Below are positions 4,267-46,391 of a stretch of 64,000 nucleotides of DNA, piece by piece. The translations under genes and the position numbers were made by a program. How positions within the stretch are numbered: position 1 is the stretch's first letter; each line of letters opens with the position of its first letter. The stretch covers positions 6,790,501 through 6,854,500 of the forward strand of contig NZ_CP108462.1 of NCBI RefSeq assembly GCF_036226365.1. The letters are read 5' to 3'. The DNA comes from Streptomyces sp. NBC_01262 (GTDB lineage Bacteria > Actinomycetota > Actinomycetes > Streptomycetales > Streptomycetaceae). The notes under the pieces were generated by a model. It saw nothing but the letters and a program-made list of their open reading frames with translations. It was not told where the DNA came from and made no database searches.

Positions 4267-5391
4267 GTGGACCCCAACGGACCGATAGCACGGCGCTTTC
4301 CGCTCGTGGCACGGGTCCGGCCGGTGTGCCTACCGCTCCCCGCCCGTGTCGGCAAGCTCGCAGAACTTGCCGACACGGCGGAGCGGGAGGCGTACCAGGG
4401 CGCGGCTTCCAGCGTCTTCAACCAGGCCGCCCTCATGGCCTCTGACCTTGGCCTGCCGGACTTAGCCCGCCGGTGGTGCCACCGGCACGCCGCCGCCTAC
4501 CTGCAGGCACGCCCCCTGATCGGCATGGACGCGATCCGTGGCCTGGAACCGCTAGTCAACCTGGCCCGGCTGCACATCCGTGCCGGCCGTGGCGACGAGG
4601 GGCACCGGATGCTCCGAGCCCTCTACGAAGCCGTTACCGAGGGCACCGCCGCCGTCCTCGACGGCATTGCCGTGCCGACTGATCTCACCGCTACCGACGC
4701 GGACCGTCAGGAAGTGCGTCAGTGGCTGTGGCGGGTCATCATCGCTGACGGCACCCGTGCTCTGACCGCTGCCGGACGCTGGCAGGACGCCCTCGCCCAT
4801 GTCAAGCAGCACCACGGCATCGGCAAGCACATGCTCGACGGCCGTCAGGTCGCCGTTCTCGCCCGCGCCACCACCGGTGACCACGACAAGGCTCAGCGAC
4901 TACTCGCCGAGACCATCCCGGGCGACCCTTGGGAGAACGCCGTCACCGCCTGCCTCACCGCCTTGTGTATAGCGCCGGACCGTCGGCCTGCCAGCCATGA
5001 GATCGAGGCCCTGCTGGTTTGCTGCCGCCGAGTCGACTTCCAGCCCGACCTCGTGGTCTTCCACACCCGCTTGGCGTTGTCGGCCGTCGACGCCGCCGGT
5101 CGCAGCGGCCATGCCGGGGTGCAGAAGGAGGCATCAGAGTTGGTCGACCGGATCGTGAAGGTTGGCGACGGGTACGCGGCACGTGATGTCCTCGCGCACG
5201 ACGGCTGCGCCAACATGCTCAGTGAGCGGCAGACGCGATGCCTTGCTGAAGTGGTGGACGCATGCGCACTGGGAAGCCGCACCCTACCCGCAGGGCTGCG
5301 AGGTGACCTTTCGACTGCGCTGGGAATCAGCGAAGCCGTGATCACGGGCACGCTGACAGCCCGCCCCCCAGACGCTAACTCGGCGCGGTGA
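4267..5391 (+). CDS. Unassigned helical (TPR-like) protein of the lanthipeptide locus
   Basis: The GTG start has a good GGAAGGAAAAC ribosome site directly upstream. The 374 residues are rich in paired helices with alternating Ala/Leu/Arg (AALMASDLGLPDLARRWCHRHAAAYL and LVNLARLHIRAGRGDEGHRML), resembling the tetratricopeptide part of Streptomyces regulators but with no helix-turn-helix in front. It lies 104 bp after the FxLD methyltransferase on the same strand and probably belongs to the same transcription unit. A regulatory or scaffold role is only a guess from this architecture. Confidence 0.6.
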   Translation: MDPNGPIARRFPLVARVRPVCLPLPARVGKLAELADTAEREAYQGAASSVFNQAALMASDLGLPDLARRWCHRHAAAYLQARPLIGMDAIRGLEPLVNLARLHIRAGRGDEGHRMLRALYEAVTEGTAAVLDGIAVPTDLTATDADRQEVRQWLWRVIIADGTRALTAAGRWQDALAHVKQHHGIGKHMLDGRQVAVLARATTGDHDKAQRLLAETIPGDPWENAVTACLTALCIAPDRRPASHEIEALLVCCRRVDFQPDLVVFHTRLALSAVDAAGRSGHAGVQKEASELVDRIVKVGDGYAARDVLAHDGCANMLSERQTRCLAEVVDACALGSRTLPAGLRGDLSTALGISEAVITGTLTARPPDANSAR

Positions 5392-5654
5392 CCGATCCCG
5401 AGTCTCCCGCGCCTGAGCTGTCGACCACCCGAGGCTTTAAGCCCGGCCAAGGGTTGAAACTGCCCGATCAGGAAACGGCCCCGCCGGACCGCTCCGTTGC
5501 TTTCGGCAGCTGCCAGCTACCGAGGACTGCTCTCTTACAAGTTTGACTGGCTTCGGGGAGGCGCCAGAGACCCTTGTAAACGGGGCGGTGCGACAGCTGT
5601 TCCGTCTGATGTACTCGCCCGGCTGCGCTGGTTGCTCTCTGCCAGGATCTCGGC

Positions 5655-6500
5655 ATGAGACTAAACCTGGGTATCACTCTGGAGTACGCCGACGACGTGC
5701 TCCGCCGAGCGGAGACGACGTGGGGCAACGCGCGTGGCGCGCAGGACTACTACCGCGCCTACACAGATGCGGTCCATGACACTTACCCCACGCTCAAGCA
5801 GGCCTTCGCTGCCCCGGATCTCGGTTCCAGCCTGCACTCTGCGGCCTACTGGAACCTGCTACCGATCGGTGGTGTGCAACCGCAGCATGTCTTCACCACC
5901 GACCCAGACGTGGCAAGGAGTATGCAACGAGCCCAGCGCGCGGAGAACCAGGCGCTCTCCACTGAGATCGAGAACCAGGTGAGGGCCCTAGCACAGGCCC
6001 GCGCCGAGCTTGAGGCGCTGAAGAAGCTCGCCGCCCGGCCCGGCGTGCCCGTTGTCTACGACACCAACATGCTCAACCACTGGCGGCAGCCCGGCGACGT
6101 CCTGTGGCGCGAGGTCTTCAAGGCCCAGGGCGAGAGCGTTCCGCTTACCCGGCTGGTCGTGCCGCTGCGTGTGATCGATGAACTCGATCGGCAGAAGTAT
6201 GGCCAGGGTGAACTCGCTAAGAAAGCCACCACCGCCATCCGCTACCTGGAGCGCGTCCTCAAGGCGGGCCAACCCGGAGCGCCGGTGTCGCTGCGCCAAG
6301 GTGTCACGCTGGAGGTGTGGGTCGACACCGACGACCGTGGCGGTGACGCTGACCTATCGATTCTGCGCTGCGCTGCTGACCTGGACAACCTCCACCCAAA
6401 CGACGGCGTCCGGGTCCTTACCGACGACTTCGGTATGCGTCTGCGCGCCCAGCAGATGGGCTTGAACGTGATGGGCCTGCCGCAGGACCACCGAAAGTGA
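5655..6500 (+). CDS. PIN-domain ribonuclease-like protein
   Basis: ATG 5655 follows AGGAT about 9 nt upstream. The 281-residue protein has a roughly 110-residue helical N-terminal part, a short coiled coil (AQARAELEALKKL) and a C-terminal PIN fold. Acidic residues expected of a metal-dependent RNase are visible: Asp136 in VVYDTNML, Glu176 in VIDELDRQKYG, Asp in GGDADLSIL and Asp-Asp in VLTDDFGMRL. No antitoxin-sized gene is adjacent, and the long N-terminal domain is unlike VapC toxins. The substrate is unknown. It sits between the lanthipeptide locus and the low-G+C module with no sign of belonging to either. Confidence 0.78.
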   Translation: MRLNLGITLEYADDVLRRAETTWGNARGAQDYYRAYTDAVHDTYPTLKQAFAAPDLGSSLHSAAYWNLLPIGGVQPQHVFTTDPDVARSMQRAQRAENQALSTEIENQVRALAQARAELEALKKLAARPGVPVVYDTNMLNHWRQPGDVLWREVFKAQGESVPLTRLVVPLRVIDELDRQKYGQGELAKKATTAIRYLERVLKAGQPGAPVSLRQGVTLEVWVDTDDRGGDADLSILRCAADLDNLHPNDGVRVLTDDFGMRLRAQQMGLNVMGLPQDHRK

Positions 6501-29132: not shown

Positions 29133-30113
29133 GTGTCCATCCAACTGATGATCGCTGCGGCGTACTTGCCGCCTGACGTGCTCAGCCAGAGCCAGAAACT
29201 CGCCCTCATGAAGATCGCGGACAGTGCCGACGACGAGACGCGCCTCGCACGCCCCGGCCTTACCCGCCTCGCGGCCTGGGTCGGCGTGACCGACAAGCGC
29301 GCCATCACCATCGTCACGGAGCTGATAGCCAAAGGGCTTGTCGAGCGCGTGGAGATCGGCAAGGCGTCACGCGCTGCGGTTTACCGGGTCTTCCCTCTCG
29401 GGGTACCGCCCACGCCGACCACGCTGGAACTCAAGGAGCGACTGGAGGCCCGCAAGGCCGCTCCGAAGAACGCCAACAAGGCCCGCCCCGGAGTGACGCG
29501 TTCGGCGCCCGCAAAGCCTGCGATGACCTATCAGGACATCGAAAACCGTGAGGCCGCCCGCCGAGAGAAGGTCGAATCTTCGCAGGTCGAGGCTGGGTTC
29601 CACGCGGGGAACCCAGGTGAGGAGGCAGGGTTCCACGCGGGGAACCCAGATGGGCAGGACGACCGGGTTTCACCGGTGGAACCCGGTGAGTTTCACGGGG
29701 GGAACCCACTGGGTTCCAGCGGTGGAACCCCTTCCTTTCCTGGTTCTTCCTCTGTCCTTCCTTTCCCCCCTACCCCCACGGCTGACGCCGCAGGGGAGCC
29801 CGTGTCCGCTCCAACAGACGGCTCTGCCTCGGAGCACGGGGAGCCATCAAGGGGCTGCACGAAGCACCGAGGGCGCCCCGCTGCCTCCTGTCGTGGGTGC
29901 GGCACCAACCTGCGCGCGGGACGCCGGAGGGAGCAGGTGGAGGCCAAGGAGGAGGAGCACCGGGAGCACGGGCGCTTCTGGGATGAGTGGCACGAGGACG
30001 CCGCCAGGCGCCGCCAACGGGTCGAGGAGCACCCGGAGGCGACCGAAGACGCGCGCAGAGCTGCGCGCGAGGCCGTACGGGCGCGAAGGGACGGCGGCCA
30101 GCGAAAAACTTAG
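29133..30113 (+). CDS. Replication initiation protein (helix-turn-helix) with embedded origin
   Basis: GTG 29133 after AAGGGGAA; 326 residues. Residues about 15-85 form a helix-turn-helix domain (LSQSQKLALMKIADSADDETRLARPGLTRLAAWVGVTDKRAITIVTELIAKGLVERV) like phage replication initiators. About 155-215 is a low-complexity Gly/Asn/Pro linker encoded by the iteron array. A CxxH...CxxC ribbon (CTKHRGRPAASCRGCG) follows, then a charged coiled coil. No helicase is visible nearby, so host DnaB recruitment is likely. Confidence 0.75.
   Translation: MSIQLMIAAAYLPPDVLSQSQKLALMKIADSADDETRLARPGLTRLAAWVGVTDKRAITIVTELIAKGLVERVEIGKASRAAVYRVFPLGVPPTPTTLELKERLEARKAAPKNANKARPGVTRSAPAKPAMTYQDIENREAARREKVESSQVEAGFHAGNPGEEAGFHAGNPDGQDDRVSPVEPGEFHGGNPLGSSGGTPSFPGSSSVLPFPPTPTADAAGEPVSAPTDGSASEHGEPSRGCTKHRGRPAASCRGCGTNLRAGRRREQVEAKEEEHREHGRFWDEWHEDAARRRQRVEEHPEATEDARRAAREAVRARRDGGQRKT
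29595..29776. repeat. Five palindromic 20-bp iterons plus pyrimidine tract: candidate replication origin
   Basis: Units lie at 29595-29614, 29628-29647, 29665-29684, 29688-29707 and 29711-29730. The first two are identical, GGGTTCCACGCGGGGAACCC. The others keep the GGGTT(C/T)C...GGAACCC arms; the fourth is the most degenerate. A nearly pure pyrimidine run follows (29731-29776, interrupted only by a few G/A). Iterons inside the initiator gene next to a biased strand recall the lambda O-gene origin. Confidence 0.75.
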
Positions 30114-30218: not shown

Positions 30219-30668
30219 ATGAACTACCTGCCCATCCTTCGTCGCGGACATAAGGGCGCGCTCATGCTCGACAGCACTAGCGCCGCCCATGAGCAGATCC
30301 GCAGCCTCGCCGACCTCTACCGTCAAGATCCCGAGGGTGTCGGCGACATGCTCATCCAGATCGCCGACCTCAAGGATCGGGTCGAGTGTGAGCGTGAACT
30401 CGACGGACTCGGGCATGCCGAGCATGTGCGGGACGAGATCGTCGGCGAACTCCTCGATGACATCGGCGGCGCGAGGGTCCACCTCGACCACCGCGCGAAC
30501 CACCGGGCACTCATGCAGGCCCGCGACCTTGCCCATCAGGCGATGCACATCGCGGGGGCGGCCCAGCGGCGCGCCGAGGAGCTGGCGGTGCTGACCGCGG
30601 TCGCCCGGCAGGTGCGGGAGGAGCGGCGCAAGTCCCCGCGCCTGGTGGTCGTCACTGGCTGGTGGTGA
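30219..30668 (+). CDS. Unassigned early protein (149 aa, helical)
   Basis: ATG 30219 with AGGAGG 6 nt upstream, first gene after promoter P2. The product is almost entirely helical, with many Asp/Glu/Arg and conserved-looking heptads (EQIRSLADLYRQDPEGVGDMLIQIADLKDRVE ... ALMQARDLAHQAMHIAGAAQRRAEELAVL). No known family recognised. Confidence 0.6.
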   Translation: MNYLPILRRGHKGALMLDSTSAAHEQIRSLADLYRQDPEGVGDMLIQIADLKDRVECERELDGLGHAEHVRDEIVGELLDDIGGARVHLDHRANHRALMQARDLAHQAMHIAGAAQRRAEELAVLTAVARQVREERRKSPRLVVVTGWW

Positions 30669-43085: not shown

Positions 43086-46000
43086 GTGACAGCTAATTCT
43101 TCTGACACCAGTGACGACCACGCGCCATCGGGTGAAGTCGCCGAGCTGCGGCGACGCGTTGGAGTGAATTCGATGACAAATGCAGGCTTCCCAGAAGGTG
43201 CTGGTGCTGAGTACGAGGAGGATCGCGCTCGGCTAGAGAGGCTGCTGAGGGATAGGTCAGGACCACCTCAGGCTCAGGCCCATGCGTTGCTTGAGTTCGC
43301 AACGGAGCTTTTGGTGGCTGCTCGCAATCTCGATTTCGGGCAGCAAGCCTCGACTGCTGCCCTGCAACGTTTGGAGCAAGAGGAGGACACCGACTTTGTA
43401 CTCCGTAGCTACGCCCATATGCAGGTGGGTGGGCTAGCCCTGATCCAAGGAGACCAGGAGCAGGCCCGGTTGCATGTGGAACGGATGCGGCACTTTGCTG
43501 AGATTGCTGGGGAGTCCGAGGCGCAGACACAAGCTGAGATGTTGCTGGCTAACCTGGCCCAGGCCCGGGGCGACCTAGCACAGGCACAGCAGCACTGGGG
43601 GCAAGTGCTCCGCTTGAGCGCGAGGGCTGAGGACGTGGATCAGCAAGCTGCCGCGAACTGGTTCATCGGCATGCTCGCCGTTGACCAGGGAAAACTAGCG
43701 GAGGCGAGACGCCACGTGGAGCAGGTGCTGGCGTTGACGGAGAATCCGCTACTACTAGGCGGGGCCGAGCTACTCCTCGGCGGACTCGCGCGGCGCCATG
43801 GCAATCTCGCGAAGGCCAAGCAGCATGCGCGGCGATCGGTGGAGTTGGCGGAGGCTGCGAATAGCGTGCTCGGACGAGGGGATTCTTGCCTTTTCGCGGC
43901 TCAGCTGTCGCGGGACGAGGGGAATCTGGCCGAGGCGCAACGGCTTGCCGAGCAGGCATTGAACCTGGCCGAGGCGGCTGGCGACGAGCTGGAGCCTGAG
44001 GAGTCACTTCGATTTTTGAGCCAAGCCCATTGTGTTGCAGGGACGTTGGCCAGGGAACGGGGGGATCTTACCGAGGGGCAACGGCTTGCTGAGAAGGCGT
44101 TGGAGCTGGCCGAGACCGCTGGAAGTCGTGGGATGCAGGCCGATGCTCACGACCTACTGGCATTGATTGCGGGGCATGAATGGGGGGATCTTTCTCGGGC
44201 ACGGCAGCATGCGGAGCGGGCGTTGGAGCTGGCCGAGGCTACGGGTGATGTACTGCAGCAGAGTCGAGCTCAAAACAAGCTGGGTGAGCTGGCTGGGCAT
44301 CAGTCTGGTGATCTGACCCAGGCACGAGAGCAAGTGCAGCGGGCGTTGCAGCTGGCCGAGGCCGCCGAGGACGTATTCGAACAAGCCCACGACCATGCAA
44401 TGCTCGGCGAGATAGCCCGGGTCCAGGGTGACCCCAGCGTGTTTGAAGAGCATGTGAAGCAGGCACTGGAGCTGGCCGAGGCTGTCCACCACAGGGTGGG
44501 TCAGGGCAACGCCCACCACCTTCTTGCCGAGCTGCACTACCAGCGGGGCCAAGTCCCGCAGGCGCGAGAACACCTGGAACAGGCTCTGTCGCTTGCTAAG
44601 AGTGCTGGGGATACGCCGGAGCAGAGCAAGGCACACTTGATGCTCGGCGACCTCGCTCGCCTGCGCCATGAATATCCTTCCGCCTGCAATCATGCTCAGA
44701 AGGCCCTCGAGTTGGCAGCGGAGGCGGGGGATGATATCGGTGCAGCCAAGGCCCACGTAGTCCTGTCGAATACGCTAGTAGCAGACTCGCCTTGGGAGCT
44801 AGCGACTGCGCTCAAACACATGATGGCAGCGATCCGCACACGGGAAAGAGTGCGACTGCGAGTAGGCAGTTCTGCCGACCGGGCGCGCATCCTCGCCGAT
44901 TCTGCGGACTGGGACCAGGTAGCTCTATCACAGGCGGCAAGCCTTGGTGATGGATGGGCTGGCCTGGAACTTGCAGAGATCGGCCGGGGAGAGGCGTTGG
45001 CGCAACTTCTGCACTCCCGCGGCACTTACGGTGACGCGCCAGAACCGGTACGAGCCCTCCTACACGATCTGGACGAGGTGCACTCCCGCAGGGGGGCACT
45101 GCTCGACCCGCGGCCCATCGCTGACGAGCGTGTCATCGACCCGGGACTGCTGCGCGCCCGTAAGGAGGCCCAGGAGGAACTCGACGAGCGGATCGCACAA
45201 CTTCACAGGGAACTGGCCACGGCCGTGGGCAGCGCGTTCCAGCGCGCCTTCACGGCTGAGCCGATTGCCGCCGACAGCTTGCGGGCGCGTCTGCGTGGAA
45301 ACGTCCATGCGCTACTGCTCAGACTCTTTCCACTTCCACACGGCGAGGGGTCTGGCGGCCGGCTGCTGTACTCCGTGTGGGTGCCTCCGGAACCGACCAA
45401 ATCGCCAGTCATTGAGGAGAAGGAGCTAACTGCGGAGCAGGTCAACTGGCTGACTGACCTAACGAGTCCGAGAGACGCACACCTAGCCGGTTGGCGTCTA
45501 CTAGAAGACACCGGACATCGCTGGCGCCGTGAGCTGGGCGAATGTTTGCTGCCCGCAGAGTTGCGCACGCACTTGAGCGAGCTGAGCCGGAGCACGGAAG
45601 GAGAACCGCCAACCCTGCTGATCGTGCCTAGCGGGGAACTTTGGGGGCTGCCATTCGCCACCCTTGACGTTAGCGGGCGCTGCCTGCTGGATCTCGCTGC
45701 CCTAACCTTGCTGCCTGCTTTGCGGATGCTGCCCGAAACCCCGCCGTTGAGGCAACCACACAAAGACGGCGGAGGGTCAGCGCAAGCCCTGGCATACATA
45801 ACCAGACCAGACGCGCAAGCCGAACGCGACCAGCTCGCCCACGACTACGGAAGCCAACTAGATGTAGAAACCGACCCCCAACAGCTGGTGACCAAGCTAC
45901 GCAACGGCGACCGTTACCAACTTGGAGTTCTGTCCGTACACGGGGACGCGGAGCTCGGACTGGCGCACAGCATCGAACTCCAGCACGATCCGCCCCACAA

Positions 46001-46391
46001 ACTGTCCGCCGCCCGCCTCCTCGGCCTCAGCCTTCCGCCGCGTCTAGTGATCGGTGCCTGCTGGTCAACGCGCGTGTCGTCTGGTCCAGGCGAGGAGCCG
46101 ATTGGACTGCCCACTGTGGCCCTCACTCGCGGCGCTACCTCGCTCACGACTGCGCTTTACCCGGTCCCCGACAAGGCTACGGGAACTATTCTTGCCGCCT
46201 ATTACCAGCAACTGGCTGCCGGCGTGCCGCCCGTTCACGCCTTGCGCAACGCGCAGAGAGGTTACATCGCCGCTGCGCAGCACGACGATTCTCCCGACTG
46301 GGAGCTTGGAGGGACTCCTGGGTACTGGGCAGGCCTGACGCTACTCACCATCGAACCCGGGCTGCAAGGCTCTGGCGATCGCGATGGATGA
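43086..46391 (+). CDS. TPR-CHAT caspase-like protease
   Basis: 1101 residues from GTG 43086 (GTG 43081 is out of frame). About a dozen TPR units fill residues 60-590, with repeated LAEARRHVEQVLALTE / LAEAQRLAEQALNLAEAAG patterns. The CHAT domain is at about 790-1090: His952 in VLSVHGDAE and Cys992 in LVIGACWST form the expected dyad, followed by IGLPTVALTRGATSLTTALYPV and the AAYYQQLAAGVPPVHALRNAQRGY end. CHAT proteases act in abortive-infection-type defence with partners such as gasdermins or type III-E CRISPR. No such partner is recognisable here, only the two small minus-strand genes. Confidence 0.85.
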   Translation: MTANSSDTSDDHAPSGEVAELRRRVGVNSMTNAGFPEGAGAEYEEDRARLERLLRDRSGPPQAQAHALLEFATELLVAARNLDFGQQASTAALQRLEQEEDTDFVLRSYAHMQVGGLALIQGDQEQARLHVERMRHFAEIAGESEAQTQAEMLLANLAQARGDLAQAQQHWGQVLRLSARAEDVDQQAAANWFIGMLAVDQGKLAEARRHVEQVLALTENPLLLGGAELLLGGLARRHGNLAKAKQHARRSVELAEAANSVLGRGDSCLFAAQLSRDEGNLAEAQRLAEQALNLAEAAGDELEPEESLRFLSQAHCVAGTLARERGDLTEGQRLAEKALELAETAGSRGMQADAHDLLALIAGHEWGDLSRARQHAERALELAEATGDVLQQSRAQNKLGELAGHQSGDLTQAREQVQRALQLAEAAEDVFEQAHDHAMLGEIARVQGDPSVFEEHVKQALELAEAVHHRVGQGNAHHLLAELHYQRGQVPQAREHLEQALSLAKSAGDTPEQSKAHLMLGDLARLRHEYPSACNHAQKALELAAEAGDDIGAAKAHVVLSNTLVADSPWELATALKHMMAAIRTRERVRLRVGSSADRARILADSADWDQVALSQAASLGDGWAGLELAEIGRGEALAQLLHSRGTYGDAPEPVRALLHDLDEVHSRRGALLDPRPIADERVIDPGLLRARKEAQEELDERIAQLHRELATAVGSAFQRAFTAEPIAADSLRARLRGNVHALLLRLFPLPHGEGSGGRLLYSVWVPPEPTKSPVIEEKELTAEQVNWLTDLTSPRDAHLAGWRLLEDTGHRWRRELGECLLPAELRTHLSELSRSTEGEPPTLLIVPSGELWGLPFATLDVSGRCLLDLAALTLLPALRMLPETPPLRQPHKDGGGSAQALAYITRPDAQAERDQLAHDYGSQLDVETDPQQLVTKLRNGDRYQLGVLSVHGDAELGLAHSIELQHDPPHKLSAARLLGLSLPPRLVIGACWSTRVSSGPGEEPIGLPTVALTRGATSLTTALYPVPDKATGTILAAYYQQLAAGVPPVHALRNAQRGYIAAAQHDDSPDWELGGTPGYWAGLTLLTIEPGLQGSGDRDG

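Follow-up and report, generated by a model that had tools for sequence, protein, structure and literature searches.

An array of five palindromic iterons in the genome of Streptomyces sp. NBC_01262 very probably serves as the origin of lytic replication for a Streptomyces-type prophage, lying inside the gene for its own initiator, the protein that we propose binds it. We base this on sequence comparisons, and an in-gene origin of the lambda type is the best-supported explanation because the encoded protein matches O-like initiator families, the array recurs in 45 of 46 distinct homologous genes, the synonymous codons of the element are conserved, and its parts follow one another in the order found in lambda. 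Throughout, "the window" denotes the 64,000-nucleotide stretch of DNA that we analyzed, positions 6,790,501 to 6,854,500 of this 9.7-Mb single-contig genome, and the features discussed below are numbered from its first letter (Table 1).

Table 1. Features of the initiator gene and its candidate origin, in window coordinates
Feature	Position	Strand	Remarks
Initiator gene	29133-30113	+	326 aa, GTG start; HTH_36, disordered linker, C-terminal Cys/His motif and long helices
Iteron 1	29595-29614	strandless	Confined to the window's group; 17-18 of 46 genes
Iteron 2	29628-29647	strandless	Kept in 45 of 46 genes
Iteron 3	29665-29684	strandless	Second reading frame; kept in 45 of 46 genes
Iteron 4	29688-29707	strandless	Most degenerate; kept in 45 of 46 genes with up to 3 of 10 arm bases mismatched
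Iteron 5	29711-29730	strandless	Third reading frame; kept in 46 of 46 genes
Pyrimidine-rich, weakly paired tract	29731-29777	+	Candidate unwinding element; ends in CCCCCCTACCCCC
Inverted repeat	29773-29796	better paired on minus strand	10-nt arms and TGAC loop; absent from the first-pass annotation
C-terminal domain coding sequence	29844-30110	+	Invariant C, H, C, R, C, G, T; no Pfam family

The initiator and its prophage setting

The only Pfam family found in the protein was the winged helix HTH_36, which matched residues 17 to 70 (E = 7.9e-7); the same resource returned no RepA_N domain. The best PHROG matches were to replication initiation families, all of them in the N-terminal part, and two of these families, 391 and 8540, carry the name "replication initiation O-like" (E = 1.1e-7). 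Together, the HTH_36 and O-like matches uphold the view of the first-pass annotation that the palindromes lie inside a replication gene. The structural model contained a fairly confident winged helix over about residues 1 to 90 (block means of 73 to 90), while residues 150 to 241, which form the linker, had pLDDT values below 50, and it is this linker, predicted to be disordered, that the iterons encode. When we searched a viral library with Foldseek, a protein named replication protein O was the second-best match, at low TM-scores (0.24/0.34), and the Foldseek matches in the PDB, many of them MarR-type folds, included 4pql and 4pt7, which are N-domains of plasmid initiators. The structure searches indicated a generic winged helix, with VIA-align Z values of 9.6 at most and many near ties.

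In the model, the C-terminal domain consists of a small pair of strands and, after it, two long helices, and its alignment revealed invariant Cys, His, Cys-Arg, and Cys-Gly-Thr positions. In Pfam the window's row of this alignment was unmatched, and six families matched one of the 18 rows each, with E values of at least 0.013.

We assigned the locus to a prophage because genes upstream of the initiator gene match PHROG families of tail tape measure, minor tail, and tail fiber proteins, and because a Sak4-like ATPase, a PD-(D/E)XK nuclease, and a C5 DNA methylase are encoded around it. The nuclease gene and two upstream genes were found in the same orientation at all 41 related loci examined, with the methylase present at 37 and the ATPase at 18 of these 41. 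Scans of the neighboring genes with Pfam and PHROG recognized no helicase loader or DnaB, and the next gene (30219-30668), which bears on the question of a P-type loader, had no PHROG match and no Pfam match above the cutoff. GC skew showed no turn at the iteron site. To the right of the prophage genes discussed here, positions 43086-46391 of the window hold a gene for a TPR-CHAT protein of 1,101 aa.

A conserved DNA element within the coding sequence

The five 20-bp palindromes within 136 bp that had been reported earlier are present at the coordinates given, all of them inside the 326-codon gene. Iterons 1, 2, 3, and 5 have 9 of 10 positions paired; iteron 4 (GAGTTTC.../GGAACCC) is a poor dyad with 6 of 10 pairs, as counted by eye. 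They had also been described as in frame, which is incorrect: their gene offsets of 463, 496, 533, 556, and 579 correspond to frames 0, 0, 1, 0, and 2, and the iteron DNA in its three frames encodes GFHAGNP, RVSPVEP, and GSSGGTP. That copies occur in all three frames makes the case for selection on DNA stronger. The original form of that case, an appeal to low-complexity peptides of the GFHAGNP type, holds for three of the five copies (G/EFHxGNP) and not for the other two, and the use of three frames is the better argument.

We compared the gene with 3,000 codon shuffles in which both the protein and the codon usage were fixed. The gene contains five palindromes with at least 9 of 10 positions paired, four of which are iterons, and this number was reached in none of the shuffles (mean of 0.17 per gene, maximum of 2). 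At a laxer cutoff of 8 of 10, the observed five palindromes were matched or exceeded in 14 of the 3,000, and the likeness of the copies to one consensus was reached in 74. Applied to five relatives, the 8-of-10 test gave 0, 3, 17, 96, and 103 of 1,000 shuffles, so that in L016 and L039, with 103 and 96, the palindrome test alone is not significant.

Relatives of the initiator are encoded at 25 viral loci and 15 genome loci, and further searches added more. A phylum-wide search matched 9 of 396 genomes, namely the initiator's own genome and eight weak matches (E = 1e-5 to 9e-4), and another genome search matched 28 of 391, many over part of the protein alone; among 50,697 phage records, in a search that may omit very near records, the initiator had no DNA or protein match. 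We retained 46 distinct homologous genes for comparison of the array, after dropping the identical L085-L089 and leaving out the frame-broken L076. Kept outside this set were L080 and L084, which have other arms, and L097, L098, L101, L106, and L133, which have another N-domain. On the basis of their translations, L081, L082, and L105-L110 were set aside as weakly related or unrelated.

Four sites with a spacing of 37-23-23, the same frames, and no more than 3 of 10 arm bases changed were present in 45 of the 46 distinct genes, the exception being L096, in which the reading frame is disturbed and two sites are left. As a background, we scanned the first 380 bases of the 46 genes, where none of 17,480 positions came within 2 mismatches. 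Positions 7 and 14, which played no part in site selection, were C and G, respectively, in 93 of 96 distinct sites each, and the spacing of the array was unchanged between groups with about 50% identity in protein.

Several observations on individual loci accompany this comparison. Initiator reading frames are apparently broken in L015, L076, L095, and L096, and the iteron array is retained in two of these, L015 and L095. At L058, a truncated extra copy of the N-terminal winged helix (5001-5312) lies just upstream of the full initiator gene (5309-6232), and this copy could compete for iterons. We also considered covariation of the recognition helix with iteron position 8 (A or C) and rejected it: L126 and L077 share helix residues and differ at that position.

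The tract that follows the iterons had been described as pyrimidine-only. The stretch 29731-29776 in fact contains 42 pyrimidines in 46 nucleotides. No other 46-nt stretch of the 64 kb has at least 42 pyrimidines or purines, and 42 was reached in 0 of 3,000 codon shuffles. GC3 in the tract was 0.50 in group A and 0.40 in group B, versus 0.82 and 0.89 upstream. The least stable 36-mer of the gene fell within the tract in 42 of 46 genes; near position 30,100, at and beyond the end of the gene, the window's DNA is even less stable than the tract.

The inverted repeat beyond the tract folds better on the minus strand than on the plus strand (-10.5 versus -8.2 kcal/mol), with equally good folding in 4 and 5 of 200 shuffles. 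We examined it in 50 genes, comprising the 46 array genes together with L097, L101, L106, and L133. All ten pairs can form on the minus strand, with G-T allowed, in 42 of these genes and in 13 of 21 distinct sequences, and changes on both sides relative to the commonest pair were seen at pair 8 in L031 and pair 9 in L043. The hairpin is not universal, since in eight genes (L029, L039, L041, L042, L095, L096, L106, and L205) the set of ten pairs is incomplete in this register.

We assessed DNA-level constraint by comparing codon pairs that encode the same amino acid in 35 of 41 genes (15 of group A and 20 of group B), leaving out L015 and L024, whose frames are broken, and L032, L037, L038, and L044, which are identical to others. 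Synonymous codon identity was 0.90 in group A and 0.88 in group B for iteron codons and 0.98 and 0.87 for the tract. The corresponding values were 0.69 and 0.76 for the stretches between iterons and ranged from 0.64 to 0.73 for the helix-turn-helix, the N-side linker, and the C-terminal parts. For the element as a whole, identity was 0.930 (A) and 0.880 (B), versus maxima of 0.769 and 0.732 over the 191 shifts of the mask that avoid the element; with overlapping shifts included, the observed value was reached by 1 of 325 in each group. The iterons alone gave 0.904 and 0.881, versus non-overlapping maxima of 0.820 and 0.764, and the observed values were reached by 27 and 12 of 325 shifts when those partly covering the element were counted. 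The margin for the tract alone was small in group B (0.878 versus 0.851). Across both groups, codon identity dropped from 0.94 at residue 222 to 0.36 at residue 223, which places the 3' edge of the conserved element at about 29798, a boundary that the first-pass annotation had not noted, and synonymous conservation thus spans 29595 to about 29798. The conserved synonymous codons and the presence of copies in all three frames bear out the proposal that selection acts here on DNA rather than on protein.

Alternative explanations and known in-gene origins

If the array is an origin, the N-terminal winged helix of the initiator would bind each 20-bp dyad as a dimer, and the array, with its closely spaced sites, would gather four or five dimers into an O-some-like complex. 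Strain from this complex would open the weakly paired pyrimidine tract lying 3' of it, so that single strands, and perhaps the minus-strand hairpin, become exposed, and the C-terminal Cys/His domain would bring in a host helicase or primase.

The dyads might instead be transcription operators, used for autorepression or by another phage regulator, with no origin involved. Such a role would fit the many MarR-type PDB matches of the winged helix, and 20-bp dyads suit a dimeric repressor, but we consider it improbable: the sites are found 460 bp downstream of the start of the gene; the rest of the 9.7-Mb genome contains just two lone matches with no more than one mismatch to the pattern used; the PHROG names refer to replication initiation; and next to the array comes a tract that is conserved and melts easily, accompanied in most genes by an inverted repeat.

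We regard it as very unlikely that the element acts in RNA, whether as mRNA hairpins or as a slippery C run with a hairpin for ribosomal frameshifting. Although the dyads can form hairpins, and CCCCCCT with a hairpin downstream looks like a frameshift site, G-U accounts for 21 of 124 mismatches in the arms, where about 2 in 12 would be expected if mismatch types were equal, and there was no Rfam match at an E value of 0.1. The frameshift version was rejected because the alternative frames are not kept open: of the 36 genes with a result (L021 and L043 falling outside), 29 have a -1 frame that closes after 6 codons, and the +1 frame is not open in every gene.

Iteron arrays also serve in partition, incompatibility, or packaging in plasmids and phages, and the chance that the present array is such a site for another protein seems similarly slight, given that no partition genes were recognized among the neighboring genes scanned and that in 45 of 46 cases the array is part of an O-like initiator gene. 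The least credible alternative is that the repeats arose at the protein level, through selection for a linker peptide or through recent slippage, which would suit the three G/EFHxGNP copies and the 74 shuffles that reach the same consensus likeness but not the different peptides that one DNA sequence yields in three frames, the conserved synonymous sites, the predicted disorder of the region, or a spacing that stays constant between groups whose proteins are about 50% identical.

The element had been likened at the outset to the origin in lambda O. This comparison stands with respect to the O-like PHROG matches, the array, the synonymous conservation, and the order of the parts, and it fails with respect to the C-terminal domain and a direct match to lambda O. 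In the lambda record (NC_001416), four iterons lie inside O in three frames and are followed by an A+T tract and an inverted repeat (the latter identified by eye). Both origins have mid-gene iterons in more than one frame, located between the DNA-binding and C-terminal coding parts, and in both the iterons are followed by an easily melted, strand-biased tract and then by an inverted repeat. However, the iterons are 20-bp GGGTTCC/GGAACCC dyads here and 18 bp long in lambda, the coding strand of the tract is rich in pyrimidines here and the tract only relatively rich in A+T, whereas lambda has a purine-rich A+T tract, and no P-like gene was recognized among the neighboring genes scanned here. 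A comparison of a single lambda O sequence with the initiator profile by hhalign gave a probability of 0.1 and no match. Residues 140 to 292 of lambda O match positions 133-288 of PHROG 391, while the window protein matches positions 1-156 only; since lambda O matches this family C-terminally, the link to lambda runs via the O-like families and not via the N-domain of lambda O. The C-terminal domain is unlike that of lambda O, and the likeness to lambda O, as far as the sequences indicate, is confined to the N-terminal part.

Plasmid initiators offer a second comparison. The rep gene of pSK41 contains four centrally located Rep boxes that are bound by the N-domain, and the linker encoded by these boxes is dispensable provided that the origin is present at another site (PMC5703833). 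In pPR9, a PF13730 N-domain has replaced the pSK41-type N-domain together with the origin (PMC5703833). Our locus resembles pSK41, where the origin lies in rep and the boxes encode the linker between an N-terminal winged helix-turn-helix and a C-terminal domain, and it resembles pPR9 in that PF13730 is the Pfam family of the initiator described here and that the array in the gene is a candidate origin. In contrast, pSK41 and pPR9 are low-GC Firmicutes plasmids, the RepA_N domain of pSK41 was not found here, and their C-terminal domain binds DnaG. The C-terminal domain of our initiator has no Pfam match. The Stx-phage origins of P27 and 933W are lambdoid and in-gene, with an iteron number of 4 or 6 (PMC7466680); a variable iteron number is shared with the 4 or 5 sites seen here, although these phages are enterobacterial and have clear relatives of lambda O.

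We did not class the initiator as a member of the lambda O or RepA_N families, because its C-terminal domain is unlike that of lambda O, no direct similarity to lambda O was found, and Pfam returned no RepA_N domain, but by analogy the layout of initiator and origin appears to work like the lambda and pSK41/pPR9 systems. In-gene iteron origins are already known from lambda and pSK41, and the present case would be a variant of these. Judging by titles and the starts of abstracts, we found no description of an in-gene origin in a Streptomyces phage or prophage; the nearest paper concerns mycobacterial prophages (PMC7157519).

Other actinobacterial initiators and a possible bipartite origin

Repeats within initiator genes also occur in more distant relatives. 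L080 is 37% identical to the window protein, and L084 is 40% identical to L080 in the best segment; both have in-gene repeats with GGGTCC/GGACCC arms (by eye) and a CCCCCCAACCCCCC tract. The gene at 1393-2457 of L099 encodes an O-like initiator with seven to eight in-gene repeats of the CAGTGTCCGGAAATCCCGGACACTG type, as do L100, L102, L103, and L104; the C-terminal part of L099 matches PHROG 8064, and a CT-rich stretch follows the repeats in L099 and L104. L111 has an initiator-like gene (1366-2328) with five to six in-gene repeats of the GGGGTAGC/GCTACCCC type and then a C/T-rich stretch. What the L099 type, L111, and L080/L084 share with the window is in-gene linker repeats with dyad character, whereas their arm sequences differ, and L099 and L111 also have other C-terminal domains.

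The C-terminal Cys/His domain, for its part, is common to initiators with different N-domains. L097, L133, and L101 differ from the window protein in their N-terminal domain and are without the GGGTTCC array, and the family-profile match of L097 and L101 is limited to the C-terminal part, where these two are 29% and 33% identical to the window's domain (in an alignment without L133). The best PHROG matches of L097 are 37920, 1456, and 4707; L097 and the window protein both match PHROG 270, which makes a distant relation of their winged helices likely. The element formed by the C tract and hairpin agrees with that of the window at 35 of 36 nt in L097 and L133 and at 34 of 36 in L101. In L098, whose N-domain is O-like by PHROG, and in L106, the C tract alone is common with the window.

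We searched 293 genomes for the C-terminal domain, using a profile that contained one mistyped row, and obtained twelve matches, ten of them strong (E < 1e-10). The exact 13-mer lies at the gene in seven of these ten; G297 and G507 carry variants, and G445 has no exact form. By itself, the C6TAC5 13-mer is unspecific, occurring in 66 of the 293 genomes, and a reversed control was about as frequent by eye. Among 139 pattern-found loci examined, which exclude the family's own L122-L145, an in-frame Cys/His motif was present in four, the window among them.

Because a near-identical tract and hairpin recur in initiators with different N-domains, we raise, as a tentative reading that we ourselves think rather doubtful, that the origin could be bipartite and mosaic, with the iterons traveling with their N-terminal reader and the C6-TA-C5 tract and hairpin traveling with the Cys/His domain. 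In such an arrangement, the Cys/His domain may recognize the tract and hairpin, in double- or single-stranded form, and thereby load a helicase or primase. Alternatively, the same pattern would result if the element were inherited along with the C-terminal domain while being constrained at the DNA level.

For a group of Streptomyces prophages whose initiator lacks a counterpart in the cultured-phage collection that we searched, our analysis supplies a candidate origin of 204 bp with exact limits (29595-29798), and with this candidate the in-gene origins of the lambda and pSK41 style are extended to high-GC Actinobacteria. Three-frame coding, together with the reuse of one DNA element across N-domains, makes the co-evolution and shuffling of origins and initiators testable, and the candidate origin could provide replicons for Streptomyces vectors.
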